64,000 nucleotides of DNA from NCBI GenBank assembly GCA_016218765.1, contig JACRCZ010000147.1, forward strand, positions 1-64,000, read 5' to 3'. Source of the stretch: Deltaproteobacteria bacterium (lineage in GTDB: Bacteria > Myxococcota_A > Polyangia > DRWM01 > JAAZOP01). A program made the position numbers and the translations under genes. Position 1 is the first letter of the stretch; each line of letters starts with the position of its first letter. Below the pieces are notes generated by a model. It ran no database searches. It saw nothing but the letters and a program-made list of their open reading frames with translations, and was not told where the DNA came from. Below, piece after piece: positions 10,110 to 62,156 of this stretch.

Positions 10110-11462
10110 ATGAACGAGCGGCGGACGCGACCGGTGGGGGTGTTGCTGGCCGACGACGAGGAGGCCTCGCGGGAGGTCCTGTCGTACCACCTGGGCGGGC
10201 TGGGCCTGGAGGTCGATGCGGTGCCCGACGGGCGGACGGCGATCGGCCGTTTCGACGCCGGCCGGCACCGTCTGGTGGTGACCGATCTCAAGATGCCGCA
10301 CGCGGACGGCATGGCGGTGCTGCGCCACGTGCAGGAGCGCGCGGCGGGGACGCCGGTGATCGTGGTGACGGCGTTCGCCTCGATCCCGGGAGCGGTGGCG
10401 GCGATGCGGGCGGGAGCCTACGACTTCATCGGCAAGCCGTTCGACCGCGAGCAGCTCGGGGTGGTCGTGCGCCGTGCGCTGGAGCACGTGCGGCTGCTCG
10501 ACGAGAACTGCCGCCTGCGCGAGGAGCGCGAGGCGCGCCACGAGATCGTCTTCCGCTCGGCGGTGATGGCCGAAACGCTGGACGTCGTCGACCGCGTCGC
10601 GCCCGGCGACGCGTCGGTGCTGATCACGGGCGAGAGCGGGACGGGCAAGGAGCTGATCGCGCGGCGCCTGCACGCGCGCTCGAAGCGTGCGGACGGGCCG
10701 TTCGTCGCCGTCTCGTGCTCGGCGATTCCGGCGGAGCTGTTCGAGAGCGAGCTGTTCGGGCACGTGCGGGGCGCGTTCACGGGGGCGAGCCGCGACCGTC
10801 CGGGGCGTTTCGCGAGCGCCGACGGGGGGACGCTGTTCCTGGACGAGGTGGGGGACCTGCCGGCGCCGATGCAGACCAAGCTGCTGCGCGTGCTGCAGGA
10901 GCGGGTCGTCGATGCCGTCGGGTCCGACCGGCCGCAGGCGGTGGACGTGCGGGTGATCTCGGCGACGAACCGGGCGCTGGCGGAGCTGATCGACGTCGGC
11001 GGGTTCCGCACGGACCTGTTCTATCGCCTGAACGTCGTGGAGGTCCGCGTCCCGCCGCTGCGGGAGCGCGCGGACGACATCGAGCCCCTGGTGCGGCGGT
11101 TCGTGGCGCGGTTCGCGGGCGCGCGGGAGCTGGAGGTGCCCGAGGAGGTGCTGGCCGAGCTGCGGCGGCGGCCTTGGCCGGGCAACGTGCGGGAGCTGGA
11201 GAACGCGTGCGAGCGGGCCGTGCTGCTCTGCCGGGGCGACCGCTTGCGGGTCGAGGACCTTCCGGCCGCGGCGGGTCCGGAGCCGGCCGCGTGGCCGCCG
11301 CTGCCGCCGGACGGACTCTCGCTCATCGACCTCGAGGTCGACGTCATCCGCCGGGCACTCGAATGGCACGGCTGGAACCGGACGAAGACGGCGGCGTACC
11401 TGCGCATCCCGCGGCACGTGCTGATCTACCGCATCGAGAAGCATGGACTCCGCCAACCGTAG
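10110..11462 (+). CDS. Sigma-54-dependent response regulator, NtrC family
   Basis: A 450-residue activator. Receiver domain about 10-125 with phospho-acceptor Asp in VVTDLKMPHADGM and the TAFASIPGAVAAMRAGAYDFIGKPF ending. AAA+ domain with Walker A GESGTGKELIARRL, GAFTGA (sigma-54 contact), Walker B GGTLFLDEVGDLP and the arginine-finger region FRTDLFYRLNVVEVRVPPLRER. C-terminal Fis-type HTH about 405-450 (GWNRTKTAAYLRIPRHVLIYRI). It should bind enhancer-like sites and drive sigma-54 RNA polymerase. It overlaps by 20 bases the histidine kinase gene that follows. It is the only enhancer-binding activator visible, so it is the leading candidate for the sigma-54 promoter set at 27-41 kb, which is an inference. 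Confidence 0.92.
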   Translation: MNERRTRPVGVLLADDEEASREVLSYHLGGLGLEVDAVPDGRTAIGRFDAGRHRLVVTDLKMPHADGMAVLRHVQERAAGTPVIVVTAFASIPGAVAAMRAGAYDFIGKPFDREQLGVVVRRALEHVRLLDENCRLREEREARHEIVFRSAVMAETLDVVDRVAPGDASVLITGESGTGKELIARRLHARSKRADGPFVAVSCSAIPAELFESELFGHVRGAFTGASRDRPGRFASADGGTLFLDEVGDLPAPMQTKLLRVLQERVVDAVGSDRPQAVDVRVISATNRALAELIDVGGFRTDLFYRLNVVEVRVPPLRERADDIEPLVRRFVARFAGARELEVPEEVLAELRRRPWPGNVRELENACERAVLLCRGDRLRVEDLPAAAGPEPAAWPPLPPDGLSLIDLEVDVIRRALEWHGWNRTKTAAYLRIPRHVLIYRIEKHGLRQP

Positions 11463-12561
11463 CTTCCGCGACCTGCTGGGCGCGCGGATGTGGGTCCTGT
11501 CCTACGGCCCGATCCTGCTCGTCACCGCGCTGCACTTCGCAACCCCGACGCACGCGCACGGCGCGCACGACATCCTGCGTCGCCTCTACTACCTCCCCAT
11601 CCTGCTCGGCGCCTTCGCCGGCGGCTGGCGCGGCGGCCTGGCCGCCTCGCTGGTCACGGCGCTCTGCTACATCCCGCACGGGTTCCTCGCCATCGGGATG
11701 CACGACCCCGGCCGGCCGGTGGAGAAGGTGCTCGAGCTGGTGCTCTACCAGGTCGTGGCCGTCGTCGCCGGCGTGCTGGTCGACCGCGAGCGCGAGGAGC
11801 GGCGCCGACAGGAGCGTCTGGCGCTGCGGCTGCAGGCGACGCTGGACGAGCTGCGGGCGACGGAGCGCCAGCTCGTGCGCTCGCAGAGCCTCGCCGCCCT
11901 GGGCCAGATGACCTCCGGCCTGGCGCACGAGATCCGCAACCCGCTGCACGCCATGAAAGGGACGGCCGAGGTGCTGGGCGACTTCCTGCCGGACGACCCG
12001 CGCCCCCGCCGGATGCTCGAGCTGCAGGTCCGCGAGATCGATCGCCTCGCCGCGCTGCTCGAACGGTTCCTGGCCTTCGCCCGGCCGCGCGCGCCGGAGA
12101 AGAAGGCGCACCTCGCGGGCGACCTGGTGCGACGCGCCGCGGAGCTGCTGCGCGTCGAGGCCGCGCGGGCGGGTGTGGACGTGGACGTGCGGGTCGCGGC
12201 GGACGACCCGGCGGTCGGCTGCGACGCGGCCCAGATCGAGCAGGTCATCCTCAACGTGGGGCTGAACGCGATCCAGGCCATGGCGCCCGCGAAACGCGGG
12301 ACGCTGCGGCTTGCCACGTCCCGCCTGCGGCGCGGCGAGGTCGAGTACGGCGCGATCCGCGTGGCGAACGACGGACCGCCCATCCCCCAGGACCTGCGCG
12401 ACCGGCTCTTCGAACCGTTCGTCACCTCGCGCGAGAACGGCACCGGGCTCGGCCTCGCCATCGCGGAGCGGATCGTGGACGCGCACGGGGGGCTCCTCGA
12501 GGTGGAGCCTGGAGGCGAAGGGCGGGAAGTGGCGTTCGTGATCCACCTGCCGCAGGGGTAG
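11443..12561 (+). CDS. Sensor histidine kinase with His-rich membrane input module
   Basis: A 372-residue partner of the NtrC-type regulator, with overlapping genes. Residues 10-105 form a four-helix membrane module with clustered His (TALHFATPTHAHGAHD), then RRLYYLPILLGAFAGGWRGGL and CYIPH. A linker coiled coil (about 108-140) leads to the HisKA box with phospho-acceptor His in GLAHEIRNPLHAMKG. The ATPase domain has N box NVGLNAIQAM, G1-like VANDGPP and G2 GTGLGLAIAERIVDAHGG. The membrane module recurs with the same His and LY-PILL-RGGL pattern in the UspA protein at 39922, suggesting a shared ligand; metal binding through the His cluster is an inference. Confidence 0.9.
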   Translation: MDSANRSFRDLLGARMWVLSYGPILLVTALHFATPTHAHGAHDILRRLYYLPILLGAFAGGWRGGLAASLVTALCYIPHGFLAIGMHDPGRPVEKVLELVLYQVVAVVAGVLVDREREERRRQERLALRLQATLDELRATERQLVRSQSLAALGQMTSGLAHEIRNPLHAMKGTAEVLGDFLPDDPRPRRMLELQVREIDRLAALLERFLAFARPRAPEKKAHLAGDLVRRAAELLRVEAARAGVDVDVRVAADDPAVGCDAAQIEQVILNVGLNAIQAMAPAKRGTLRLATSRLRRGEVEYGAIRVANDGPPIPQDLRDRLFEPFVTSRENGTGLGLAIAERIVDAHGGLLEVEPGGEGREVAFVIHLPQG

Positions 12562-25063: not shown

Positions 25064-26041
25064 ATGATAGCGAACGCGACGACGAACGACCCTCGTGCCG
25101 CCGCCCCGCCCGCGGCGCAACGGATCGGTCCGGCCGCGGCCATCGACCTGTGCACGGTCGCGGAGCGCCACCTGGGTTTCCGTCCCGCCGCGGTGCGGGT
25201 GTACGAGGAGACCGGCTCGTTCGTCGCCATCGACCGGGGCGACGCACTGCGGTTGGGCGGCCGGACGTATCTCGTCACCGGGACGGTCCGCGAGGAAGGC
25301 TTCGGTCTCGAGGAGCAGCCCAAGTACTGGGTCAAGCGTGCGGTCGACCTGGCGACGGGCGTCGAGAAGATCGTGAAGCTCGTGTTCCTGGAGCAGTTCG
25401 ACCTCCCGTTCGGAGGGCGGCGGGTCCGCTGTTTCCGCAGTCCGGCCAAGGAGGCGCGGCTGCTCGACGTGGTTCGCGGGCATCCGCAGTTCATGGCGGG
25501 TTCGAGCGTGCGCGACCGGGTCGGGAACCTGGTGCGGGTCATCGATTTCATCCCGGGGCCGTCGCTGGAGCGTGTGGCGTCGAGCCCTCCCGGTGGCGAC
25601 GAGGCGTACGTCCGGGAGGAGCTGCCGCGGTTGTTGTGGAGGTATCTGCCCTGCATGGAGGGGCTTCGTTTCCTCCACGAGCGGGGGGAGCGGCACGGTG
25701 ACGTGCGGGCGGACCACGTGATCGTCGATCGCGGGTCCGGCCTCCTGCGCTGGATCGATTTCGACTACGACTTCGAGTGTCCCGGGGCGCCGTTCGTCCT
25801 GGACGTCCACGGGGCGGGGAGCATCCTGGCCTCCCTCGTGGGCCGCGGGGCGGTGGATTGCCATCCGGGGCTGGGGCGCTTCGCCGCCGGGTCCCGGCGG
25901 TCCTATGCCGGCATCGGCGAGCTGATCGACGACCTGGGCGACGCGTTGTCGGGCCTGGTTTCTCCCCGCGGGCTCGATGGTTTGCCGGCCGATTCCGCGG
26001 GGAGTGTAGCTCGGTCGGAGTGGAGGGCGCGTCATGACTGA
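25064..26041 (+). CDS. Kinase-like protein, paralogue 1
   Basis: A 325-residue cytosolic protein. A kinase core can be traced: ATP-site beta strands (YLVTGTVREEGFGLEEQ), the Lys strand EKIVKLVFLEQFDL (about 105), a helix C-like SPAKEARLLDVV, the hinge VRVIDFIPGPSLE, catalytic loop HGDVRADHVIVDR (about 215) and metal motif LRWIDFDYDFE. Its N-terminal 60 residues (ERHLGFRPAAVRVYEETGSFVAIDRGDALRLGG) are shared only with the paralogue at 38912. HGD instead of HRD and DFD instead of DFG place it with the SrkA/choline-kinase-like group. The target is unknown; protein phosphorylation is inferred. Its stop overlaps the next gene by 8 bases. Confidence 0.65.
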   Translation: MIANATTNDPRAAAPPAAQRIGPAAAIDLCTVAERHLGFRPAAVRVYEETGSFVAIDRGDALRLGGRTYLVTGTVREEGFGLEEQPKYWVKRAVDLATGVEKIVKLVFLEQFDLPFGGRRVRCFRSPAKEARLLDVVRGHPQFMAGSSVRDRVGNLVRVIDFIPGPSLERVASSPPGGDEAYVREELPRLLWRYLPCMEGLRFLHERGERHGDVRADHVIVDRGSGLLRWIDFDYDFECPGAPFVLDVHGAGSILASLVGRGAVDCHPGLGRFAAGSRRSYAGIGELIDDLGDALSGLVSPRGLDGLPADSAGSVARSEWRARHD

Positions 26042-26813: not shown

Positions 26814-26820
26814 TGCCGCA

Positions 26821-34597: not shown

Positions 34598-34614
34598 GGC
34601 GAATACTCTTCGGC
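34598..34614 (+). promoter_or_regulatory. Enhancer-like palindrome, site B
   Basis: GGCGAATACTCTTCGGC is palindromic at CGAA...TTCG. A weaker inverted partner (GCGAATCTTGC on the minus strand) lies about 25 bases before it. The sigma-54 promoter P2 starts about 150 bases downstream. Confidence 0.55.
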
Positions 34615-38503: not shown

Positions 38504-38543
38504 TGTCGAGTATTGCGCACGCGGGCGCTGAATAGTCTTCGGT
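38504..38543. promoter_or_regulatory. Paired enhancer-like elements, site D
   Basis: TGAATAGTCTTCGG (38529-38542) has a weaker inverted partner (GCAATACTCGAC on the minus strand, 38505-38516) about 25 bases away. It is central between P7 and P4, at 150-175 bases from each. Confidence 0.55.
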
Positions 38544-38681
38544 CGGTCGTGGCGCCCCCGTGGTGCCGGGCTTCGATCGTGGAGCGGGAGGCGGCGCGAG
38601 TATCACTGGATGGGCGCGGAACCGCTCCGGCCCCCGCGTGGGTCGTGCATCGCGCGCGGGTCGGTCGCCGTCAGCCCGCTG

Positions 38682-38697
38682 TGGCACGCAGCTTGCT
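38682..38697 (+). promoter_or_regulatory. Sigma-54 promoter P4, perfect consensus
   Basis: TGGCACG-CAGC-TTGCT is a full match to TGGCACG-N4-TTGCW. The kinase-like gene starts 215 bases later, so there is a long leader. Confidence 0.8.
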
Positions 38698-38911
38698 CCT
38701 GGCGCACGTGCGCCGTCGGCGCGGGCGCTCGACGGTCAGGCCACGGCGGCCGCGTCGGCCGCGGCCGAGCGTCCCGCGCACCGGCACGGCGGCCCTCCGG
38801 GACGGGCCTCCCACGATCGGGACGTCGCGCCGTCGGAGCGGCACGGTCGCCCGATGCCCGGCGACCTGCGTGGCTACCGCTGCTGGTGACCGTCGCGCGG
38901 GAGGGTGGGGC

Positions 38912-39970
38912 GTGGATCACGGGATGAACGTGCTGGGGCCGGGGACCGCGTTCGAGTTGTCCGCCGATGTGGAGCGCCACCTGGGCTACCGGCCCGGGGC
39001 AGTACGCATCTTCGCCGACACGTCGGCGTTCAGCAGCATCGACCGGGGCGATGCGCTGGAGCTGGGCGGCCGGTACTACCTCGTGACGGGAACGGTCCGT
39101 GAAGAGGGGCTCGGCCTGGACGAGCAGCCCAAGTACTGGGTCAAGCGTGCGGTCCTGTGCGGGAGCGGAGCCGAGAAGATCGTCAAGCTCGTGTTTCTCG
39201 AGCAGTTCGACCTGCACTTCGGGGAGAGCGTGGTCCGTTGCTTCCGCAGCCCGGCCAAGGAGGCGCGCGTGTTGGACCGCGTGCGCCGCCATCCACAGTT
39301 CATGACGGGCACGAGCCTGCGCGACCGGGCCGGGAACAACGTCCGGGTCATCGATGTGATCCCGGGACCGTCGCTGGAACACCACGTCGGGAATCTCCCG
39401 GTCGGTCACGAGGAGTACTTCCACCGCGAGGTCCCCGCCCTGCTCTGGCGATTCCTGCCGTGCCTGGAGGGATTGCGCTTCCTGCACGAACACGGCGAGC
39501 GGCATGGCGATGTCCGACCGGATCACATCATCCTGGATCGCAACTCCGGCCTGCTGCGCTGGATCGACTACGACTACGACTACGACTATCCGGAGGCGCC
39601 TTTCGGTCTCGACATCCTGGGTGCGGGCCACGTCCTGGCGTTCATCGTGGGCCAGGGCGTGATGGACCGGCGCCGACTGCTCCGCGAGCCCGGCCTGGCC
39701 CGTACCCTCGACCGGATCGGCCCCGGCGACCACTCGGTGGTCGATCGCCGCCGGGTCGTCAACCTGGGCGCGTGCTTCCGGTACATCCCGGCTTCCCTGA
39801 ACCGTGTTCTCATGCACTTCTCGGCGGGAGCTGAGGTCTTCTACGAGCGCATCGCGGAGCTGGCCGAGGACCTGGGGGAAGCGCTGTCGGGCATGATCGC
39901 CCCGGCGCCGGGAGAGGTCACATGGGCTTGTCGCGCGCGGAGACGAAGCGGGTCCTGGTCGTCGCCCTGA
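38912..39970 (+). CDS. Kinase-like protein, paralogue 2
   Basis: GTG 38912 (after GGAGGG) or ATG 38924 both align with the start of the 25064 paralogue. The 352-residue protein is about half identical to it: YYLVTGTVREEGLGLDEQPK, EKIVKLVFLEQFDLHFGE, RDRAGNNVRVIDVIPGPSLE, HGDVRPDHIILDRNSGLLRW, IDYDYDYDYP. It differs by about 55 extra residues near 255-310 (MDRRRLLREPGL and ACFRYIPASLNRVLMHFSA). HGD and DYD stand in for HRD and DFG. Its last 49 bases overlap the UspA gene. With sigma-54 promoter P4 in front, it is likely stress-induced, while paralogue 1 has a sigma-70 promoter. Confidence 0.65.
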   Translation: MDHGMNVLGPGTAFELSADVERHLGYRPGAVRIFADTSAFSSIDRGDALELGGRYYLVTGTVREEGLGLDEQPKYWVKRAVLCGSGAEKIVKLVFLEQFDLHFGESVVRCFRSPAKEARVLDRVRRHPQFMTGTSLRDRAGNNVRVIDVIPGPSLEHHVGNLPVGHEEYFHREVPALLWRFLPCLEGLRFLHEHGERHGDVRPDHIILDRNSGLLRWIDYDYDYDYPEAPFGLDILGAGHVLAFIVGQGVMDRRRLLREPGLARTLDRIGPGDHSVVDRRRVVNLGACFRYIPASLNRVLMHFSAGAEVFYERIAELAEDLGEALSGMIAPAPGEVTWACRARRRSGSWSSP

Positions 39971-40827
39971 CGATCGGCGCGGTCACGGCGCTCCACTACG
40001 GCACCGACGCTCACCACCTCCACCTGCACGTCGTGTTCCGGGAGCTGTACTTCGTTCCCATCCTCCTGGCCGTGGTCGGCTTCGGCCTGCGGGGCGGTCT
40101 GGTGGCGGCGGCCGTGATCACGGCGGTCTACGCGCCCCATGTCGCCACCAGCATCCATACGGCCGAGTCGACCGTGGGTAATGCGCTCCAGCTCGTGTTC
40201 TTCCACCTGATCGGCGCGGCGGTCGGGGCGTACACGGACATGCGCCGCCGCCACCAGGCCGCCGACCAGGGCGATCCGGACCCGACGCCGGGGCGGTTTC
40301 CCCAGCAGGTCCTCGTCGTCGTCGATCACGGGCCCGCGGGAATGCAGGCGGCCGAGTTCGCGGGCGCACTCTTCGCCAAGGACGACGCGGCGGGCTTGAC
40401 CCTGGCGTCCGTGTGCGAGGAACCCAAGGCCGACTATTTCGCCAGCGCCGAGGCTCATGCGGCGGAGGCGGCCTGCGCGGCGGCGCGGGCCGAGGCGGGG
40501 GTGCAGCGCGCGGCGATGGTCCTGGCGAAGCGCGGCGTGCCGGAAGAGCGGATCGCGACGCGGGTCCTGCGGGCCGACGGACGGCCGTCCGATGCGATCC
40601 TGCGCGAGCAGGACCACGGAGCGTACGATGTGATCGTGGTCGGACGGCGCCGGTTGACGCGCGCGGAGGAGTACCTGTTCGGCGACGTGGCGGTGCGACT
40701 TACGCGGCGGGCCTCCTGTCCCGTGATCGTCGTAAGCGGTCCTTCGGAAGGCGGAGGGACGCCGGCGCACGAGGGTGCCGCCGCCCAGGCCGACCCGGGT
40801 CCCGCGACCGGCGCTCGGGGAAGTTGA
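39922..40827 (+). CDS. Membrane protein with His-rich input module and cytosolic UspA domain
   Basis: A 301-residue protein. Four transmembrane helices (about 8-115) carry the module shared with the histidine kinase at 11443: TALHYGTDAHHLHLHVVFRELYFVPILL, GLRGGLVAAAVITAVYAPHV. A linker leads to a UspA domain (about 128-285): QVLVVVDHGPAGMQAAEFA, GAYDVIVVGRRRLTRAEEYLFGDVAVRLTRRASCPVIVVSG, with the G-x2-G-like ATP-binding end partly altered. It is translationally linked to the kinase-like gene, suggesting the pair acts together: membrane sensing, UspA-type nucleotide binding and phosphorylation. That link is an inference. Confidence 0.7.
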   Translation: MGLSRAETKRVLVVALTIGAVTALHYGTDAHHLHLHVVFRELYFVPILLAVVGFGLRGGLVAAAVITAVYAPHVATSIHTAESTVGNALQLVFFHLIGAAVGAYTDMRRRHQAADQGDPDPTPGRFPQQVLVVVDHGPAGMQAAEFAGALFAKDDAAGLTLASVCEEPKADYFASAEAHAAEAACAAARAEAGVQRAAMVLAKRGVPEERIATRVLRADGRPSDAILREQDHGAYDVIVVGRRRLTRAEEYLFGDVAVRLTRRASCPVIVVSGPSEGGGTPAHEGAAAQADPGPATGARGS

Positions 40828-40842
40828 CCCTCTTCCGGCTCG

Positions 40843-40878
40843 GCGAATAGTCTTCGGTACATTCATGGTTATTCTCCG
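40843..40878. promoter_or_regulatory. Paired enhancer-like elements, site E
   Basis: GCGAATAGTCTTCGG (40844-40858) and the inverted GGAGAATAAC (minus strand, 40868-40877) are centred about 22 bases apart. The sigma-54 promoter P5 lies 110 bases downstream. Confidence 0.6.
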
Positions 40879-40954
40879 GCGGGCCGTTGAAGCCGAGTCG
40901 GGCGATGGGTGGTAATGCCGGTGATTCCTTGGGGTTCGTGGCGGCGACGTGGAC

Positions 40955-40970
40955 TGGCACGGGAGACGCT
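40955..40970 (+). promoter_or_regulatory. Sigma-54 promoter P5
   Basis: TGGCACG-GGAG-ACGCT: perfect -24 box, GG-N10-GC. It lies 66 bases before the TolC-like gene, so it would drive the whole efflux operon. Confidence 0.65.
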
Positions 40971-41035
40971 TCTGCCCCCGGTTGGACCCGGCGACGGACG
41001 TGGCGACCGGGGGCGATCGGGGGGAAGGAAGCTGG

Positions 41036-42436
41036 ATGTTGACGCGCTTCGCACGACCTGACGCTCCGCCCACCGTGGTCATCGGACTGGCGGTTGCGGC
41101 ATTGCTGGTGTCGGGCCCGGCAACGGCGCAGGAGGCCGCCGGATCCGAGGGGACCGGCACGGCGGAGGAATCGGCCGAAGCGGATGCCGCGACCGCCGAG
41201 ACGCCGCCTCCCGCCGTTGCCCTGCCGCTGCCCGCCCTCCTGCAACGTGCGGTCGACGGCTCACCGATGGTCTTCGCCGCCGAGGCGCGGATCGACGCGG
41301 CGCGCACCGTCGGCGATCAGGTCTCCGCCTATCCCGTGCCGACCGTGGGCGTCACCGCGATGGGCTTTCCAGGCGACGAGATGAACGGCTACGGCGAGCT
41401 CTGGTACACGGCGAGCCAGATGTTCCCGCTCGGCGATGCGCGCGACCGGCGGGCCGAAGCGGCGCAGGCCGGCGCGGACGAGGCCGTTGCCGACCGCGCG
41501 ACCCTGCAGCTCGACCTCGTCCTGCAGATTCGCCTCGCCTGGGTCGAGCTGGCCCGCTCGCTGGCCGATGTCCTGGTGGTCGACGACCAGACCGACACGA
41601 TGAGCCGCATGTCGCGCATCGCCAACAACGCCTACGCCGCCGGCGTCGGCATGGGCTCGCAGGCCGACACCCTGCGCGCGCGGGCCGAGATCCCGATGAT
41701 GGAGGATGAGCGCCGGATGGCCGAGGCGATGGCGACGTCCGCACGCGCGATGATCGCGGCCATGGCGGCGCTGGTGAGCTCCGAGACGCCCGCCGATCCG
41801 CCGGCGATCGACATCGAGGAGTACGAGGCGCCGGCGTTGCCGACGCTCGAGGAGCTGTTGGCGGGCGCGGTCGAGCGGCGGCCGGAGTTCGCGGCGCTGG
41901 AGGCGCGGGCGGACGCGGCGGAGTCGATGGGGCTGGTGGCGGCCGAAGAGCGGCTGCCCGACCTGATGCTGGAGGGCGGCGTGCAGCAGCGGCTCGGCGG
42001 GGACATGCCGCCGGTCGCCTTCATGGTCGGCGTGTCAATCACGCTGCCGTGGGCCTCGCCGGACCAGTTCGACGCGATGGAGGCCGAGGCCCGCGCGATG
42101 GGCCGGATGATCCGCGCGGACGGCGACGGCCTGCGCTTCGCGATCGAGTCGGACCTGCGGCAGCAGCTCGCGCGCTACGAGCAGCTCGCCGGGAGCCTCG
42201 AGCTGGTGCGCAAGACGATCCGCAACCTGCGCCAGGCGGAGAACGCGGCGGTCGCCGCGTACACCGCGGGCAACGGCGACTTCGACGCGATCCTGAACCT
42301 GGAGTCACGCCTGCTGGAGTCCCGCCGCGCCCTGGTGCGCAGCATCTACGAGATCCAGGCCGTGCGGGCGCGCATCGATCGCATCATCGCCCTGCCGATC
42401 GACGAGCAGATCGAGGCCGCGGAGGGGTGGTCATGA
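41036..42436 (+). CDS. TolC/CusC-like outer-membrane efflux protein
   Basis: The ATG at 41036 follows GGAAGGAAG. Of 466 residues, a signal peptide (VIGLAVAALLVSGPATAQ) and an Ala/Glu/Pro stretch precede the OEP fold: VDGSPMVFAAEARIDAARTVGDQVSAY, coiled-coil halves with regular Ala/Leu/Glu heptads, and FDAILNLESRLLESRRALVRSIYEIQAVRARIDRI. Met-rich positions (MNGY, PMMEDERRMAEAM, MEAEARAMGRMIR) are noticeable, as in CusC partners. It forms the exit duct for the RND pump that follows; the stop overlaps the CusB-like start (ATGA). Confidence 0.8.
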   Translation: MLTRFARPDAPPTVVIGLAVAALLVSGPATAQEAAGSEGTGTAEESAEADAATAETPPPAVALPLPALLQRAVDGSPMVFAAEARIDAARTVGDQVSAYPVPTVGVTAMGFPGDEMNGYGELWYTASQMFPLGDARDRRAEAAQAGADEAVADRATLQLDLVLQIRLAWVELARSLADVLVVDDQTDTMSRMSRIANNAYAAGVGMGSQADTLRARAEIPMMEDERRMAEAMATSARAMIAAMAALVSSETPADPPAIDIEEYEAPALPTLEELLAGAVERRPEFAALEARADAAESMGLVAAEERLPDLMLEGGVQQRLGGDMPPVAFMVGVSITLPWASPDQFDAMEAEARAMGRMIRADGDGLRFAIESDLRQQLARYEQLAGSLELVRKTIRNLRQAENAAVAAYTAGNGDFDAILNLESRLLESRRALVRSIYEIQAVRARIDRIIALPIDEQIEAAEGWS

Positions 42437-44211
42437 ACGACGAAGAGAACCGACCGAAGCCCGAACCGGAGACTCCCGACGCGGAGCCGAACCGCACCCT
42501 TCAGGGTGCGGCGGGCGGTACCGGACCTGCCGAGTCGAGCACGCCGCGGGCTGAAGCCCGCGGGTCGGATCCGGAATCCACCAGCGACTCCCCGCCCGAC
42601 CCCTCGCCCGCCGACCAGCCTGCCCTGAGCCCCGCCCGCCCCGAGCTTGTCGAGGGGTCGAAGGGCCCACCGGCTCGCCCTGAGCCTGTCGAAGGGCCGG
42701 CCGCCGACCCCGCGTCCGACGCCCTGCTGCCGCACGCGACGGCGGAGGACGACCCGCGCCTCCAGGCGATGGCGGCGCGAGGCGGAGGCGGCGTCTGGCG
42801 CGTCGTTGCCGTCGTCCAGTTCCTGCTCATCTTCCTGCTGGGCGGCGGCGTGGCCATGATGGCGGTGCTCAAGGTCGGACCGTTCGCACCCGTGGTGGCG
42901 GGCGCGCAGACCGGCGAGACCTGGACGTGCCCGATGCACCCGCAGGTGCGCCAGGATCATCCCGGCGATTGCCCCATTTGCGGCATGACGCTGGTGAAGG
43001 AGAAGCCCGCGGAGCCGCAGGGCGGGGAGCACGCCGAACACGCGGTCCCGGGGACCGCGCCGGTCACGGTGCCCACCTCGGTCCTCCAGCACGGCTCCGT
43101 CCGGGTCGCGCGCGCGGCCCGCGCGACGATGGGGGACGAGCTCCTGACCATCGGACGGGTCGAAGCGGACGAGACCCGCGTGGCCCACGTCCACTCGCAG
43201 GTCATGGGCTGGGTGACCGTCGTCAACGTGAACCAGACGGGCCAGTTCGTGGCGCGCGGCGACGTCCTCCTGGAAATCTTCAGCCGCGACATCCTCCAGA
43301 CCCAGCAGGAGCTGCTGGCCGTCGGCGGCCGGCGCGGCGGCGCCGCGGGCGCGATCGGCGACCCCATCCGCACGCTCGCCGATGCGGCCCGGCAGCGCCT
43401 CCTGGTCTACGGCGTTCCCCCGGACGTGATCGAGGACATCGAGCGCACCGGCAAGCCGCGGGCGACCATCCCCATCCGCAGCCCGTCCTCCGGCTTCGTG
43501 CTCATGAAGAACGTCTTGGACGGCATGTTCGTCGAGCCCGGGATGGAGATGTTCGTCATCGCCAGCCTGTCGAACGTGTGGGTCTGGGCGGACGTCTACG
43601 AGCAGGACTTGCGGAAGGTGCACCTGGACGACCGGGCCGAGGTCCGGACGCTGGCCCTCGGCGATCGGCTGTTCGACGGCCGCGTGACGTTCTTCAGCCC
43701 CGAGGTCGACATGATGACGCGCACGTTGCGCGTGCGGATCGAGATCCAGAACCCGGACCTCGCCCTGCGCCCTGGCATGTGGGCTTCGGTGCGCATCGTC
43801 GGCGGGGAGAACGAGGTGCTCGCGGTGCCCTACGATGCCGTCGTCGACACCGGCACCAGCACGTACGTCTTCGTGCAATCGGGCACCGACATGTTCACCG
43901 CGCGCCACGTCGTCGCCGGACGCTCGTCCGGCGACCTCACGGAAATCCGCGAGGGCCTGGCGGTGGGCGACGTCGTGGTCGCTTCCGGCACGTTCATCGT
44001 CGACTCCGAGAGCCGCATCCGCGGCGGCGACACGGGCGGCGGAGCCCACGCCGGGCATGGGGAACAGGCGGCGAATGGGGAAGCCCCCGCAACCGAACCG
44101 CGCCCTTCCGGGGGCGGAAACCCGCCGCGGTCTGACGACCGCGGTTCGGGTGCACAGCCTACGCCCCCGACTCCCCCGGCCGGCGGGCACGCCGGACACG
44201 GAGGGACCTAG
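42433..44211 (+). CDS. CusB-like membrane fusion protein with N-terminal heavy-metal-binding domain
   Basis: A 592-residue periplasmic adaptor. The N-terminal 115 residues are a Pro/Ala/Glu-rich low-complexity region partly encoded by palindromic repeats. Then a membrane anchor (VVAVVQFLLIFLLGGGVAMMAVLK) and a heavy-metal-binding domain, TWTCPMHPQVRQDHPGDCPICGMTL, precede the adaptor core: RVEADETRVAHVHSQVMGWVT, IPIRSPSSGFVLMKNVLDGMFV (lipoyl/hairpin halves), VDMMTRTLRVRIEIQNPDLALRPGMWASV, and GLAVGDVVVASGTFIVDSESRI. The tail is a His-rich HAGHG, again with palindromic repeats. Cu(I)/Ag(I) handling is likely. Confidence 0.85.
   Translation: MNDEENRPKPEPETPDAEPNRTLQGAAGGTGPAESSTPRAEARGSDPESTSDSPPDPSPADQPALSPARPELVEGSKGPPARPEPVEGPAADPASDALLPHATAEDDPRLQAMAARGGGGVWRVVAVVQFLLIFLLGGGVAMMAVLKVGPFAPVVAGAQTGETWTCPMHPQVRQDHPGDCPICGMTLVKEKPAEPQGGEHAEHAVPGTAPVTVPTSVLQHGSVRVARAARATMGDELLTIGRVEADETRVAHVHSQVMGWVTVVNVNQTGQFVARGDVLLEIFSRDILQTQQELLAVGGRRGGAAGAIGDPIRTLADAARQRLLVYGVPPDVIEDIERTGKPRATIPIRSPSSGFVLMKNVLDGMFVEPGMEMFVIASLSNVWVWADVYEQDLRKVHLDDRAEVRTLALGDRLFDGRVTFFSPEVDMMTRTLRVRIEIQNPDLALRPGMWASVRIVGGENEVLAVPYDAVVDTGTSTYVFVQSGTDMFTARHVVAGRSSGDLTEIREGLAVGDVVVASGTFIVDSESRIRGGDTGGGAHAGHGEQAANGEAPATEPRPSGGGNPPRSDDRGSGAQPTPPTPPAGGHAGHGGT
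42487..42574. repeat. REP/BIME-like composite palindromes inside the CusB-like gene, copy 1
   Basis: CCGCACCC-TTCA-GGGTGCGG is a perfect hairpin, followed by CCGCGGGCT-GA-AGCCCGCGG. The second half is nearly the same as 15941-15970, and the first half resembles 44093-44149. All are translated in frame as linker residues. Confidence 0.8.
42637..42698 (+). repeat. Two CCTGAGC-TGTCGA palindromes in the CusB-like linker
   Basis: CCCCGAGCTTGTCGAGGGG (from 42640) and GCCCTGAGCCTGTCGAAGGG (42677-42696), translated RPELVEG and RPEPVEG. They are the same family as 3087-3109. Confidence 0.75.
44093..44149. repeat. REP/BIME-like composite palindrome near the CusB-like C-terminus, copy 2
   Basis: CCGAACCGCG...CGCGGTTCGG forms a long outer stem with CCGCGGTC-TGAC-GACCGCGG inside. 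It encodes the GGNPPRSDDRGSG tail before the His-rich end. Confidence 0.75.
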
Positions 44212-44214
44212 CGC

Positions 44215-47200
44215 GTGCAGCTCGAATCCTCCAGCCGCGGCTACGGGCCCGTCGAGAAGCTGATCGTCTGGTGCGCGCACCACCGCGTGACGGTCGTGCT
44301 GCTCGCCGCCGGCGTCGGCCTCGCCGCGTTCTTCTCTCTGAGATTCCTCCAGCTCGACGCGATTCCCGATCTGTCGGACACGCAGGTGATCATCAAGGCC
44401 GAGTGGATGGGCCGGTCGCCGGACCTGGTCGAGGACCAGGTGACCTACCCCATCGTCTCGGCGCTCGTGGCGATGCCCAAGGCCAAGACGGTCCGCGGCT
44501 TCTCGATGTACGGCATGTCGTACGTCTACGTGGTCTTCCAGGACGGGACGGACATCTACTGGGCGCGCTCGCGCGTGCTGGAATACCTCTCGCGCATCCA
44601 GGGCAACATGCCCGAGGGCGTGATGCCGACGCTCGGCCCGGACGCGACCGGCGTCGGGTGGGTCTTCCAGTACGCGCTGGTCGACGAGACGGGGACGCGG
44701 TCGCTGGCCGACATCCGGGCGTTCCAGGACTGGACGCTGCGCTACTGGCTGGAGAGCGTGCAGGGCGTCGCCGAGGTGGCTTCGATCGGCGGCTTCGAGA
44801 AGCAGTACCAGGTGCAGGTCGACCCGGACAAGCTGCGCGGACGCTCGATGTCGCTCATGCACGTCGTCGACGCCGCGCGTGACGCGAACTCCGAGGTCGG
44901 GGCTCGCGTGGTGGAGCGCGGCGGGCGCGAGTACTCGGTCGTCGGGCGCGGATACGTCAAGCGCCCCGAGGACCTGGCGACGTCGGTCGTCGGGACCGAC
45001 GACCGCGGGACGCCGGTGCTGGTGCGCGACGTGGCCGACGTGCGCCTCGGCCCGGAGATGCGGCGCGGCACCGGCGACCTGGACGGGCGGGGCGAGACCG
45101 TGGGCGGCATCGTGATCATGCGCCACGGCGAGAACGCGCTCGCGGTGATCGAGCGCGTGAAGGCGCGGCTGGCCGAGGTCGAGAAGGGCTTTCCGGCGGG
45201 TCTCAAGCTCAAGATCGTCTACGACCGCTCGGGCGTCATCCTGGACAGCATCGAGACGCTCCAGGACAGCATCATCGAGGAGATGATCGTGGTGGCGATC
45301 ACGATCATCATCTTCCTGCTGCACTTCCGCAGCGCCCTCGTCCCGATCCTCGCCCTGCCGCTGGCCGCCCTGATCGCCTTCCTGCCCATGGTGCTGCTCG
45401 GCATCTCGTCCAACATCATGAGCCTGGGAGGGATCGCGATCGCGATCGGCGCGATGGTGGACGCCTCCATCGTGCTGGTCGAGAACGCACACAAGCGTCT
45501 CGAGCTGCCGCCCCCCGGCGTCTCCCGCCTGGACATCATCGCCTCGGCGGCGGCCGAGGTCGGGCGGCCGATCTTCTTCGCGCTGCTCATGGTCACGGCG
45601 TCGTTCCTCCCGGTGTTCACGCTGTCGGGCCAGGCGGGCCGGCTGTTCGCCCCGCTCGCCTGGACGAAGACCTTCTCCATGTTCTTCGCCGCGATCCTCG
45701 CCGTGACCCTGGCACCGGCGCTGATGGTCTGGTTCGTGCGCGGGAAGATCCTGCCCGAGCACCGGAACCCGACCAGCCGAGTGTTGATCGCGATCTACGA
45801 GCCGATCATCCACTTCGTCCTGCGCTTCCGCTACGCCGCCGTGCTGGTCGCGCTGCTGATCCTCGCGGTGACGGTGCCGATCCTGCCCAGGATCGGCTGG
45901 GAGTTCATGCCGCCGCTGGACGAGGGCTCGCTGCTCTACATGCCGACGACCCTGCCGGGCGTGTCGATCGAAGAGGCGCGGCGGTCGATGATCGAACAGG
46001 ACCGCGTGCTCAAGTCGTTCCCCGAGGTCGTCTCGGTCTACGGCAAGGCTGGACGCTCGACGACGTCCACCGATCCGGCCGGGCTGGACATGATCGAGAC
46101 GGTGATCCAACTCCGCCCACGGGACGAGTGGCGCAAGGTCCGCGAGGACCGCTGGTGGTCGTCCTGGGCCCCGGACTTCCTGGCGGGGGGGTTCGACTGG
46201 GCCTGGCCGGAGGAGCGGCCGATCACCACCGAAGAGCTGAAGACGCTGATGTACGACGCGCTCGAGGTGCCCGGCTGGGTCGACTCCCTGTCGCCGCCGA
46301 TCAAGACGCGGATCGACATGCTGACCACCGGCGTGCGGACGCCGGTGGGCGTGAAGGTCCTGGGGCCGTCGCTGGCCGAGGTCGACGAGGTGGCGCGCAT
46401 CGTCGAGGCCGCGCTCAAGGACGTGTCGGGGACGCAGGCTGTCTTCGCCGACCGCGTCTCCGGCGGGTACTACATCGATGTCGTGCCCAAGCGCGAGGAG
46501 ATCGCCCGCTACGGCCTGCGCGTCGCCGACGTCCAGGCGGTCGTCGAGACGGCCATCGGCGGGATGGTGGTCGGCACCACGGTCGAGGGCCGGCAGCGCT
46601 TCACGATCCTGGTGCGCCTGGCCGAGGGCTATCGCGGCGACCCGGCGGCGATCGAGCGCATCCCGGTCGACCGGCCCGGTGAAGGACCACCGATCCCGCT
46701 GGGACAGCTCGCCGACGTCCGGCTCACGAACGGCCCGCCGATGATCAAGGACGAGAACGGGTCGCTCGTCGCCTACGTCTACGTCACGGTCGACGAGTCC
46801 AAGCGCGACATCGGCGGGTACGTCGACGAGGCGAAGGTCGTGGTGGCCAAGGCCGTGGGCGAGCGTCCGGGAATCCACCTGCAGTGGACGGGCCAGTACG
46901 AGCTGATGGAGGAGATGTGGTCGCGGCTCAAGTACGTCCTGCCGCTGACCATCGTGCTCGTCATCGTGTTCGTCTACTTCAGCTTCAAGGGCGTGACGCA
47001 GACCGTGCTCAAGCTCCTGTCGCTGCCCTTCGCCGCCGTCGGCTCGATGTGGCTGATGTACCTGGCGGACTACAACTTCTCCACCGCCGTGATCGTCGGG
47101 CTGATCGCCCTCATGGGGGTCGGCGCCGAGACCGGCATGGTGATGATCCAGTACATCGATGACGCGTACTACCGGCGGCGCAAGGCCGGCCTGATGCGCG

Positions 47201-47736
47201 GCCTGGGGGACATTCTCGAAGCGCACGCCGAGGGTTCGATCCGGCGCGTCCGGCCGAAGATCATGACCGTCGGCACGACGATCGTCGGCCTGGTGCCGCT
47301 GCTGTGGTCCGAGGGCACGGGCGCGGACGTGATGAAGCGCATCGCGGCACCAATGGTCGGCGGGCTGCTCTCCTCGACGATCCTCACGCTGATCATCATC
47401 CCGTCCGTCTACACGATCTGGCGCGACCTGGAGCTGCGCAACCTCTGGCGCCGCACGGTCGTGCTGCTGTTCTCCTTCCTCGCGGCCGCCGGACTGGTCC
47501 TGTCGGCCGCGCTGTGGCCCCGGTGGCAGGAGAGCGTTCCCGCCCCCTGGGTCGTGTCCGTCGCCGGCGCGGCGCTGCTCGTCGCGCTCGGCATCCTGGT
47601 CCGAGCAGGGGCGTTCCGCGGCCGATGGCTCGCCGATCCCCTGCGCCTGGAAACCGCACCGCGCGCGCCCGACGCTCCGGCCGCGCCCACCGGCGCCCCC
47701 GGCGGTCCGGCGGCGCCCGAAGGAGACAAGTCATGA
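44215..47736 (+). CDS. CusA/CzcA-family heavy-metal RND efflux pump
   Basis: A 1173-residue protein from GTG 44215. Usual RND layout: first helix VTVVLLAAGVGLAAFFSL, large periplasmic loop with AEWMGRSPDLVEDQVTYPI, helices 2-6 with MVDASIVLVENAHKRLE (proton-relay Asp), the second loop starting GWEFMPPLDEGSLLYMPTTLPG, and helices 7-12 with the final VGTTIVGLVPLLW and GGLLSSTILTLIIIPSVY. The Met-rich positions near FMPPLDEGSLLYMPT agree with the Cu/Ag branch. The C-terminus has about 90 extra residues with two helices and a Pro/Ala tail, longer than E. coli CusA. It follows the CusB-like gene by three bases and is coupled to the next by ATGA. Confidence 0.9.
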   Translation: MQLESSSRGYGPVEKLIVWCAHHRVTVVLLAAGVGLAAFFSLRFLQLDAIPDLSDTQVIIKAEWMGRSPDLVEDQVTYPIVSALVAMPKAKTVRGFSMYGMSYVYVVFQDGTDIYWARSRVLEYLSRIQGNMPEGVMPTLGPDATGVGWVFQYALVDETGTRSLADIRAFQDWTLRYWLESVQGVAEVASIGGFEKQYQVQVDPDKLRGRSMSLMHVVDAARDANSEVGARVVERGGREYSVVGRGYVKRPEDLATSVVGTDDRGTPVLVRDVADVRLGPEMRRGTGDLDGRGETVGGIVIMRHGENALAVIERVKARLAEVEKGFPAGLKLKIVYDRSGVILDSIETLQDSIIEEMIVVAITIIIFLLHFRSALVPILALPLAALIAFLPMVLLGISSNIMSLGGIAIAIGAMVDASIVLVENAHKRLELPPPGVSRLDIIASAAAEVGRPIFFALLMVTASFLPVFTLSGQAGRLFAPLAWTKTFSMFFAAILAVTLAPALMVWFVRGKILPEHRNPTSRVLIAIYEPIIHFVLRFRYAAVLVALLILAVTVPILPRIGWEFMPPLDEGSLLYMPTTLPGVSIEEARRSMIEQDRVLKSFPEVVSVYGKAGRSTTSTDPAGLDMIETVIQLRPRDEWRKVREDRWWSSWAPDFLAGGFDWAWPEERPITTEELKTLMYDALEVPGWVDSLSPPIKTRIDMLTTGVRTPVGVKVLGPSLAEVDEVARIVEAALKDVSGTQAVFADRVSGGYYIDVVPKREEIARYGLRVADVQAVVETAIGGMVVGTTVEGRQRFTILVRLAEGYRGDPAAIERIPVDRPGEGPPIPLGQLADVRLTNGPPMIKDENGSLVAYVYVTVDESKRDIGGYVDEAKVVVAKAVGERPGIHLQWTGQYELMEEMWSRLKYVLPLTIVLVIVFVYFSFKGVTQTVLKLLSLPFAAVGSMWLMYLADYNFSTAVIVGLIALMGVGAETGMVMIQYIDDAYYRRRKAGLMRGLGDILEAHAEGSIRRVRPKIMTVGTTIVGLVPLLWSEGTGADVMKRIAAPMVGGLLSSTILTLIIIPSVYTIWRDLELRNLWRRTVVLLFSFLAAAGLVLSAALWPRWQESVPAPWVVSVAGAALLVALGILVRAGAFRGRWLADPLRLETAPRAPDAPAAPTGAPGGPAAPEGDKS

Positions 47737-48068
47737 AGAAGGTCCTCGTCGTCCTGTCCGTCGTGTTCGCCGTCAGTGCCTTCGCCGGGCTTGCCTGCAC
47801 CCGCGAGGACGGGCCGGGGGCCCAGGGCCAGGGCGCCGCGGCGCCGGCCGACGCGACGCTCGGCACCGCCGCCGAGCTGGCGCCCGAGCGGGTGGGGACG
47901 GAGGCCGTCTGTCCCGCGACCCAGGAATCGTTCACGGTGGAGGCCGCGACCGAGGCGGCAGTCTACCAGGGCCAGCTCTACCTGTTCTGCTGCCCGGGAT
48001 GCCGCGGCCGGTTCCTCGGCAACCCGCAGCAGTTCGGGGCGCCGGCACCGGCCGGCGGAGGAACGTAG
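47733..48068 (+). CDS. Small YHS-like lipoprotein
   Basis: A 111-residue product from an ATG overlapping the RND stop. The lipobox is GLAC (VVFAVSAFAGLAC). A short Ala/Gly-rich stretch precedes one YHS-like domain: TAAELAPERVGTEAVCPATQESFTV, VYQGQLYLFCCPGCRGRFLGNPQQFGAP. Usual YHS reads CPVCGM...YYFCS..C..F..P; here CPxTxxxFTV and FCC-xx-C replace these. Cys positions are kept for a metal or persulfide site. Likely a periplasmic metal chaperone for the pump; untested. Confidence 0.7.
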   Translation: MKKVLVVLSVVFAVSAFAGLACTREDGPGAQGQGAAAPADATLGTAAELAPERVGTEAVCPATQESFTVEAATEAAVYQGQLYLFCCPGCRGRFLGNPQQFGAPAPAGGGT

Positions 48069-48138
48069 TGCGGCACGCGCCGCCGGCGGCTCGAGCGCGT
48101 CGAGCGCCGTTCCGCGCGCGCCGGAAGGGAGACGTGTC

Positions 48139-49056
48139 ATGAGCAAGGTCATCGCGTGGAACATCGCGATCGGCGCCGCCGCCGTCCTGGCCGGCGCCGC
48201 CTGCGCGAAGAAGGAGCAGCCGGGCCCGCCGGTCGTCGGCGGGGAGTCGCCCGTCGCGACCCAGGCCGGCGAGGCCGGCGCCTGGTATCGCTGTCCGATG
48301 CCCGAGGACAACTACTGGCAGAAGGGGCCCGGCCGGTGTCCCAAGTGCGGCATGAACCTCGAACGCGCCCCCGAGGGCTGGGCGCCGCCGGGGGAGCCGA
48401 CCGGCGCGTGCGCCGGCGACGCTTGCGTCGCCGGTGAAGATGCGGGGCATACGCACGATCCCTCCGGTGGGACGGCCGGGATGGCCGGGATGGAGCACGG
48501 AGCTTCCGGGGAGAGTCCCGGGACGGGCGGGATGGCTGGGATGGAGCACGGTTCGGCCGGAGCGCCGGCCGACCCGCACGCGGGTCACGTGCATGGTCAC
48601 GCGGCCGCGGGCGAGCCGCACGCCGTCGCGGGCGGTGCGACCGCGACGACCCCGGCCGCCGCGGACGCGGGCACGTCCGTCGCCCAAACCACCGACCAGG
48701 AGAAGACCTGGTTCACGTGTCCGATGCACCCCGAGGTGTACCAGGATCGCCCGGGTGACTGCCCCATCTGCCACATGCACCTCGTGCCCGCGCCGTCCGG
48801 GTGGACTCCCCCCGCCGGCGCCGGTGCTTCGGCCGCGACGCAGACGCCCGCGGTCCGGACGGCGAAAGACCTGGCGCCGGAACGGCTGGGTCAGCAGGCG
48901 ACGTGCCCGGTGACCGGCGACACCTTCACGGTCATGGACGAGACACCCGCGGTGGAATACCAGGGCACCGTCTACCTCTTCTGCTGCGCCGCCTGCCCGC
49001 CGCGCTTCCTGGCCGACCCGCAGCGGTTCGGCGCGCCCCCGCCGGCGGCGTCGTGA
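48139..49056 (+). CDS. Lipoprotein with two heavy-metal-binding segments, Met/His linker and YHS-like domain
   Basis: A 305-residue protein with lipobox AGAAC. The first metal segment is unusual: WYRCPMPEDNYWQKGPGRCPKCGMNLERAP, where the usual HP...DxPGDCPICGM is WQKGPGRCPKCGM. A linker has GMAGMEHG repeats and His-rich PHAGHVHGH, able to bind copper. A standard WFTCPMHPEVYQDRPGDCPICHMHL follows, and the YHS-like end has ERLGQQATCPVTGDTFTV, VYLFCCAACPPRFLADPQRFGAP. Together a three-module metal-binding protein in the efflux operon. The 54583 gene carries a related first segment. Confidence 0.75.
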   Translation: MSKVIAWNIAIGAAAVLAGAACAKKEQPGPPVVGGESPVATQAGEAGAWYRCPMPEDNYWQKGPGRCPKCGMNLERAPEGWAPPGEPTGACAGDACVAGEDAGHTHDPSGGTAGMAGMEHGASGESPGTGGMAGMEHGSAGAPADPHAGHVHGHAAAGEPHAVAGGATATTPAAADAGTSVAQTTDQEKTWFTCPMHPEVYQDRPGDCPICHMHLVPAPSGWTPPAGAGASAATQTPAVRTAKDLAPERLGQQATCPVTGDTFTVMDETPAVEYQGTVYLFCCAACPPRFLADPQRFGAPPPAAS

Positions 49057-61882: not shown

Positions 61883-62156
61883 GGACGGGTTCCTTCAGAG
61901 CCCCCAGCTCTGGAACCTGGACGTCGCCCACGCCCTGGCCATTTCCGAAGGAGTCGATGACCTGACCGGCGAGCATTGGAAGGTCGTCAACTTCATCCGC
62001 GACTACTACCTGCAGCACGGCATGGCACCCATGTTGCGCATGCTCATGCGCTCGACCGGCCACACCTTGTCGGAGATCTACGACCTGTTCCCCACGGGCC
62101 CCGCGCGCGGCGCGTGCAAGATTGCCGGCCTGCCCCGTTCCGTGGGGTGCGTGTAG
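61836..62156 (+). CDS. dsrC: DsrC/TusE-family sulfur carrier with both C-terminal cysteines
   Basis: A 106-residue protein matching the family end to end: VLETDEDGFLQSPQLWNLDVAHALAISEGVDDLTGEHWKVVNFIRDYYLQHG, APMLRMLMRSTGHTLSEIYDLFPTGP, then the flexible arm GACKIAGLPRSVGCV. Both arm Cys are present ten residues apart, as in true DsrC; TusE-type proteins keep only the last. It carries trisulfide or persulfide sulfur. DsrAB and DsrEFH are not in this window, so its partner here is unclear. The sulfite reductase-TusA fusion and the broken desulfurase upstream are candidates. Confidence 0.9.
   Translation: MALTLIVGSNVLETDEDGFLQSPQLWNLDVAHALAISEGVDDLTGEHWKVVNFIRDYYLQHGMAPMLRMLMRSTGHTLSEIYDLFPTGPARGACKIAGLPRSVGCV

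Follow-up and report, generated by a model that had tools for sequence, protein, structure and literature searches.

A histidine-marked membrane module shared by a histidine kinase and a Usp protein: a predicted copper receptor with several outputs

Described systems and the locus

Among described metal-linked two-component systems, ZraSR of E. coli pairs its kinase with a sigma-54 activator, as is the case here, whilst its input domain is a different one and its metal is Zn or Pb. CusS and CopS, which provide periplasmic copper sensing for cus and cop genes, are alike in the task that we propose below and differ in build: they hold a periplasmic domain between two helices, for which the module described here has no room. 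A further point of comparison is the K+ sensor kinase KdpD, whose membrane domain (DUF4118) resembles our module in length, helix pattern and distant sequence homology. KdpD, too, combines the fold with Usp and kinase domains; in KdpD the Usp domain comes first and the membrane domain follows, the reverse of the order in our fusion. MASE1 is likewise a membrane-embedded input module combined with several outputs, and differs in its longer profile (299 positions). PMC3673472 lists DUF4118 among the domains that occur with Usp, and PMC3707914 describes CorSR of Myxococcus xanthus, in which a copper kinase and a sigma-54-dependent NtrC-type regulator serve a copper operon, CorS having a periplasmic sensor domain and HAMP rather than a helical module.

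The window (the whole 64,000-nucleotide stretch of DNA that was analysed) encodes two proteins that begin with the same helical module. One is a histidine kinase (11443..12561, plus strand), in which the module, at about residues 18-120, is followed by HisKA and HATPase_c; the gene of an NtrC-family response regulator (10110..11462, plus strand; Response_reg, Sigma54_activat and HTH_8) overlaps that of the kinase, and, with rpoN in the genome, the pair is a two-component system of the NtrC/sigma-54 kind. The other is a Usp fusion (39922-40827, plus strand; both ORFs are confirmed), whose module (residues 1-115; 39922..40266, plus strand) precedes a Usp domain at residues 129-271 (40306..40734, plus strand; PF00582, 3.2e-21) that scores 76.8 bits against a cut-off of 24. 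The Usp ATP-binding motif, G-2x-G-9x-G(S/T), is not present in all Usp proteins, and here it is degenerate by eye in glycine and Ser/Thr, reading G2xR9xGD (G-RR-R-LTRAEEYLF-G-D). In neither protein does Pfam detect the KdpD layout, with KdpD and Usp domains before the membrane domain and the kinase after it, nor a CusS/CopS-type periplasmic domain (about 150 residues) or a HAMP domain; instead, the module is all-helical in the models, at about 115 residues.

The Usp gene directly precedes a cusCBA-type operon on the plus strand, composed of an outer-membrane efflux protein of the CusC/TolC type (40949..42436), a CusB-type adaptor with a heavy-metal-binding domain (42049..44211, the true start being later, near 42.43 kb) and a CusA-type RND pump (44215..47736). 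The pump residues M576/M626/M702 align with the methionine triad of E. coli CusA, M573/M623/M672, and this places it among the Cu(I)/Ag(I) RND pumps. A protein with two HMBD stretches follows (47776..49056, plus strand), for which YHS scores 28.3 bits, below its cut-off of 30.3. The window kinase lies about 28 kb from the pump, and no metal genes are found among its scanned neighbours.

On its other side, the Usp gene is overlapped at its start by a protein-kinase-like gene (38924..39970, plus strand), which has no Pfam match and reads HGD...WIDYD by eye; a paralogue at 25064-26041 is 68% identical to it and reads HGD...WIDxD by eye. We considered this gene as a conserved partner of the Usp protein and abandoned the idea, as relatives occur in only three other genomes out of 282; no Usp ORF is apparent by eye near them in the ORF lists of the three loci. 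A 14-bp direct repeat stands before the kinase-like/Usp pair (GAATAGTCTTCGGT; 38530..38543, plus strand) and again upstream of the efflux operon (40845..40858, plus strand), where 13 of its 14 bases are kept in the sister species. An exact match to its first 13 bases is found at these two places and nowhere else in the genome, bracketing 38530-40858, and the repeat is possibly a shared promoter element. Near-copies with ATAGTCT are seen at 26820, 26842 and 36370, and a looser one at 34601.

A search for the sigma-54 -24/-12 consensus, TGGCA(C/T)-N5-TTG(C/T), returned an exact site (TGGCACGCAGCTTGC; 38682..38696, plus strand) upstream of the candidate operon that includes the Usp gene and a second at 62023-62037, two in the window against 0.04 expected. 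That the window kinase drives the pump through the former site was entertained, and we do not put it forward as established: the sister species G283, a congener whose pump is 93% and whose kinase and regulator are 92-95% identical, has no such consensus upstream of its pump operon, and genome-wide the exact motif is enriched only about twofold (13 sites versus 6 for the reversed control).

Conserved residues and outputs of the module

The sequence-only reading had claimed a common N-terminal module in the two window proteins, and this holds: 32 of 80 residues are identical (40%; BLASTP, E 7e-14), and a six-frame search of the organism's own 5.9 Mb genome with residues 1-115 of this Usp protein retrieves the query itself and the kinase (3.2e-14), with no third strong copy (next match E 1.04). 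R-x-LY-x2-PILL, G-x-RGGL and Y-x-PH are present in both proteins, as it had stated. T-x2-H-x2-H, also given as shared, is found in the Usp protein and is absent from the kinase, which reads THAHGAH; the form actually common to both is TALH-x2-T-x2-H-x4-H. The module end that it gave, 40230, falls inside the last helix, and the homology extends to about 40263.

Residues are numbered here as in the Usp protein, and were followed through an alignment of 53 rows and then one of 126 rows, with divergent members added. H25, H36, R40, L42, Y43, P46, G58 and P72 are invariant in the 53 rows, and H73, R41, Y44 and E90 are kept in 52 of them; in the larger alignment, R40 and E90 are each kept in 123 rows. 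What had been described as clustered histidines narrows to three that are conserved family-wide: H25 at the end of helix 1 (codon 39994..39996, plus strand; 53/53 and 119/126 rows), H36 at the start of helix 2 (40027..40029, plus strand; 53/53 and 123/126) and H73, in Y-x-PH, at the end of what we predict to be helix 3 (40138..40140, plus strand; 52/53 and 118/126). H31, H32, H34 and H79 show no conservation in the 53-row alignment, and its listed columns hold no conserved Cys or Met. Some variants were noted in passing. The module kinase L165 (998-2035, in genome G589) has by eye apparently lost its phospho-accepting His, VADEV replacing AHEVRN, and its last helix has G-N-A-L-Q in common with that of the window Usp protein; in L199 and L201, a related helix module (THLFYIPI) is C-terminal to a cytoplasmic domain, a reversed order.

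Relatives were gathered with the N-terminal 115 residues from 282 phylum-sample genomes (38 with a match), with the full Usp protein from 317 class genomes (matches at E<=1e-12 in 26, one being Usp-only), and by an alignment scan of 84,980 species genomes, which gave 147 stretches and of which the best 80 of 136 relatives were kept. The scan used a single peptide pattern with R-R-L-Y/F-Y and is therefore unable to detect the R-E-L-Y-F form that the Usp protein has; a profile of R-E/D-L-Y-F members was searched against 395 Desulfobacterota-side genomes (94 with a match). The 136 ORFs read from the loci reduce to 114 non-redundant proteins, 113 with HisKA as output and one, the window protein, with Usp.

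Members of odd length, inspected in 17 regions that were picked by frame length and not at random, have further outputs. Proteins with HisKA and no ATPase domain are L161 (2129-2755), L162 and the plus-strand one of L197, HisKA being confirmed by Pfam for L161 and assigned by eye in the rest; in L197 this gene and that of a complete module kinase are divergently oriented. HD-GYP proteins are L198, L202, L204 and L205, with HD confirmed by Pfam in all except L204, which was assigned by eye. The plasmid collection yielded a single record, pPRO1 of Pelobacter propionicus, on which the first 116 residues of an annotated HD phosphohydrolase match the module (E 5.7e-23) with the His kept; this HD-GYP gene lies about 4 kb from a module kinase, within one metal-resistance island. 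Nine non-kinase members were thus seen, window protein included. The profile search that had been proposed as a check turned up HD-GYP and HisKA-only proteins, and the claim of a portable membrane input module with unrelated outputs is supported: nearly all members are kinases, yet HisKA-only, HD-GYP and, once, Usp outputs exist.

For the Usp protein itself, it has to be considered that a recent chance fusion may have left the module as a membrane anchor with no sensing role, within a strain-variable segment before the pump operon. No second Usp fusion was found in the 282 phylum-sample genomes, nor among the limited candidates scored per genome in the 317 class and 395 Desulfobacterota-side genomes. 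G283 has no Usp gene, and at the corresponding position it has nothing equivalent to the stretch of about 34.1-40.8 kb in which the Usp and kinase-like genes lie; the Usp protein also departs from the common form at R41, E90 and Y94, and has E41, F44, Q90 and F94. On the other hand, H25, H36, H73 and R40 are all intact, whereas several other R-E/D-L-Y-F members in the 126-row alignment have no H25 or no H73, the gene stands directly before cusCBA, and the copper-cluster protein L161 is among those placed near the Usp protein in the tree. The Usp protein groups there with the R-E/D/K-L-Y-F subset (support 89/82, an open fork) on a long branch of its own; as it does not stand beside the window kinase, a recent duplication of the latter does not appear to be its origin. 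We regard a chance fusion as a substantial possibility, if short of probable, and a copper-responsive tethered Usp as plausible.

Copper genes around the relatives

The genes around 80 kinase loci were grouped into clusters, with 6 kb flanks where present. An NtrC-type regulator occurs in 61 of the 80, CusA in 16, an adaptor in 18 and an outer-membrane factor in 17. With known CusA, CopA, multicopper oxidase and CopB as queries, CusA or CopA is detected within the flanks of 22. For CusA, the 16 loci compare with about 0.6 expected by chance, a rough yardstick given that taxa differ and that kinases in general may favour efflux genes; its basis is the density of CusA in 39 relatives (136 family matches over 236 Mb), with split genes counted repeatedly, and it is as such an over-estimate. 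The Cus-linked rows spread across several branches of the tree and across phyla, and the Cu/Ag methionine triad is present in all six neighbouring CusA proteins that cover its three positions, the other ten of the 16 being too short or covering the first position only.

Of 20 regions lying immediately before efflux operons in these loci, 5 contain the sigma-54 consensus, against 0.11 expected from its density and none for the reversed control. At L079 the consensus is upstream of a cupredoxin gene that precedes another efflux gene, and at L212 it is present in both directions between the regulator and pump genes.

Copper clusters accompany four of the nine non-kinase members, the window protein counted; the remaining five have no copper gene recognised by these queries in 4.5-7.5 kb. 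The HisKA-only L161 adjoins CopB, a multicopper oxidase and CopA/HMBD fragments, the HD-GYP protein L205 adjoins CopA, and the pPRO1 island holds a metal P-type ATPase, a metal-sensitive regulator and a CusA pump with its three substrate methionines. Among the divergent kinases, L163 adjoins CopB and an oxidase. The earlier suggestion of a metal, perhaps copper, remains the best guess that these neighbourhoods allow, with binding itself a prediction.

The association is uneven. CusA or CopA was found in none of the 30 loci of a Desulfuromonadales-rich group versus 22 of the other 50; overall, 58 of the 80 loci have no CusA or CopA in the sequence examined. Among them are all 30 of the Desulfuromonadales-rich group, which keep the His, so that some members may have a ligand other than copper. 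The Desulfuromonadales-rich loci (L034, L036, L041 and others; 30 of 80) have a conserved synteny of their own, with AEC permease and PrmA genes and with HtrA-, TlpA- and CcdA-type genes, these last three names being assigned by eye from sequence. Kinases of this group may sense envelope redox state or misfolding. Could the module as a whole then sense the membrane redox state, or bind a cofactor such as haem b or a quinone through its His, copper stress being one source of envelope redox stress and bringing copper genes into the neighbourhood? The HtrA-, TlpA- and CcdA-type neighbours of a group without copper genes would fit this, and helix-end His with tyrosines and R40 would suit a cofactor site too. 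However, copper detoxification genes, CopB and multicopper oxidase included, recur beside four outputs (kinase, HisKA-only, HD-GYP and Usp), and we consider redox or cofactor sensing an unlikely general explanation.

Fold, predicted mechanism and meaning

The module had been called new, and it is so only in a relative sense, as a distant and mostly sub-threshold relative of Pfam DUF4118 (PF13493). Against a gathering score of 28.4, the Usp protein scores 19.1 bits (21.5 in a second run), the kinase 25.7-25.8 (28.8 with neighbours in frame) and the relative L161 30.7. DUF4118 is matched at E<=0.01 by 91 of the 114 members and at E<=1.5e-6, roughly the curated cut-off, by nine. Between a 34-sequence module profile and the KdpD-type membrane domain encoded in this genome, hhalign gives an alignment of 72 columns (probability 92%, E 6.5e-7); in that KdpD-type domain, no counterparts of H25, H36, R40 and H73 were seen by eye. 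Judged by these sequence comparisons, the module is a distinct, compact, His-marked branch of the KdpD membrane domain (DUF4118) fold, related by distant homology. MASE1 (PF05231) overlaps weakly in Pfam in 30 of 114 members (in one example 17.2 bits against a cut-off of 29.8), and nothing further on the module came from PHROGs or NCBIfam. In the open-access library searched, none of the listed titles or openings of abstracts describes a His-marked module of this kind. That we are dealing with an ordinary DUF4118-type domain, its conserved residues serving folding or dimerisation and its signal being ion strength, K+ or membrane state rather than bound metal, has the hhalign alignment and the 91 matches in its favour, and is nonetheless improbable given the missing counterparts of the three His and R40, the mere nine members that pass about the Pfam cut-off and neighbourhoods of copper rather than potassium genes.

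AlphaFold models the Usp fusion with a mean pLDDT of 89-98 over residues 1-110 and the kinase with 92.5 over the whole protein, with the same helix pattern in the module; the Usp part of the former model is low-confidence because the alignment had no Usp rows beyond the protein itself. Helices in the Usp model cover residues 5-27, a short 30-41, a run at 44-76 and 81-115, and in the kinase model the last module helix continues into the kinase as one helix (92-181). By DSSP, residues 44-76 (50-81 in the kinase model) form an unbroken helix; the run contains the conserved G-x-R-G-G and a hydrophobicity dip at 56-59, from which we infer a tight turn between two membrane helices, giving four helices with both ends inside. 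As DSSP shows no break in 44-76, the exact topology stays at the level of inference; on the four-helix reading, the outer face would hold H25, H36 and H73. Sequence searches of solved structures returned no match to the module, its profile gives only weak, unrelated ones, and Foldseek returned none at E<=0.001. A fold-family assignment from VIA-align was discarded, the best hit being a designed helical repeat at Z 7.9, in a range common for helical bundles; its 95-residue overlap is a hint only that residues 44-76 may hide a tight turn.

We think it probable that the module is a receptor for copper (or silver). It would be a compact, membrane-embedded unit of about 105 residues, probably of four helices, with both ends cytoplasmic. 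The histidines at the outer ends of helices 1 and 3 (H25 and H73) and at the outer start of helix 2 (H36) would form a site to which R40, several tyrosines and usually E90 may contribute, and it is here, on the outer side of the inner membrane, that periplasmic copper (or silver) would bind. Binding would shift the last helix, which leads straight into the cytoplasmic output. In the kinases, the shift would switch autophosphorylation and, through the NtrC-type activator, the sigma-54 promoters of cusCBA and copA genes. For the window protein, the scheme predicts a membrane-tethered Usp under copper control, encoded beside the pump, with the Usp output serving most probably as adaptor or stress effector and not in phosphotransfer.

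More tentatively, the module may be an unnamed, all-helical membrane copper receptor with a three-His outer-face site that serves as the front end for four outputs: a sigma-54 phosphorelay, ATPase-less HisKA proteins, HD-GYP cyclic-di-GMP enzymes and Usp. One type of copper site could then drive efflux, second-messenger and stress-adaptor responses, sometimes with two of them in one resistance island; we hold this wider scheme to be possible and give it clearly less credence than the receptor prediction.

The copper kinases compared here (CusS, CopS and CorS) all sense via a periplasmic domain. If our prediction is true, copper sensing inside a membrane bundle of about 105 residues would be a new way of sensing this metal, and a minimal part for biosensors. 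It would also provide a likely signal for many NtrC-coupled kinases of Myxococcota and Desulfuromonadales that are without one, whilst the Usp and HD-GYP versions would tie copper directly to stress-adaptor and cyclic-di-GMP control.
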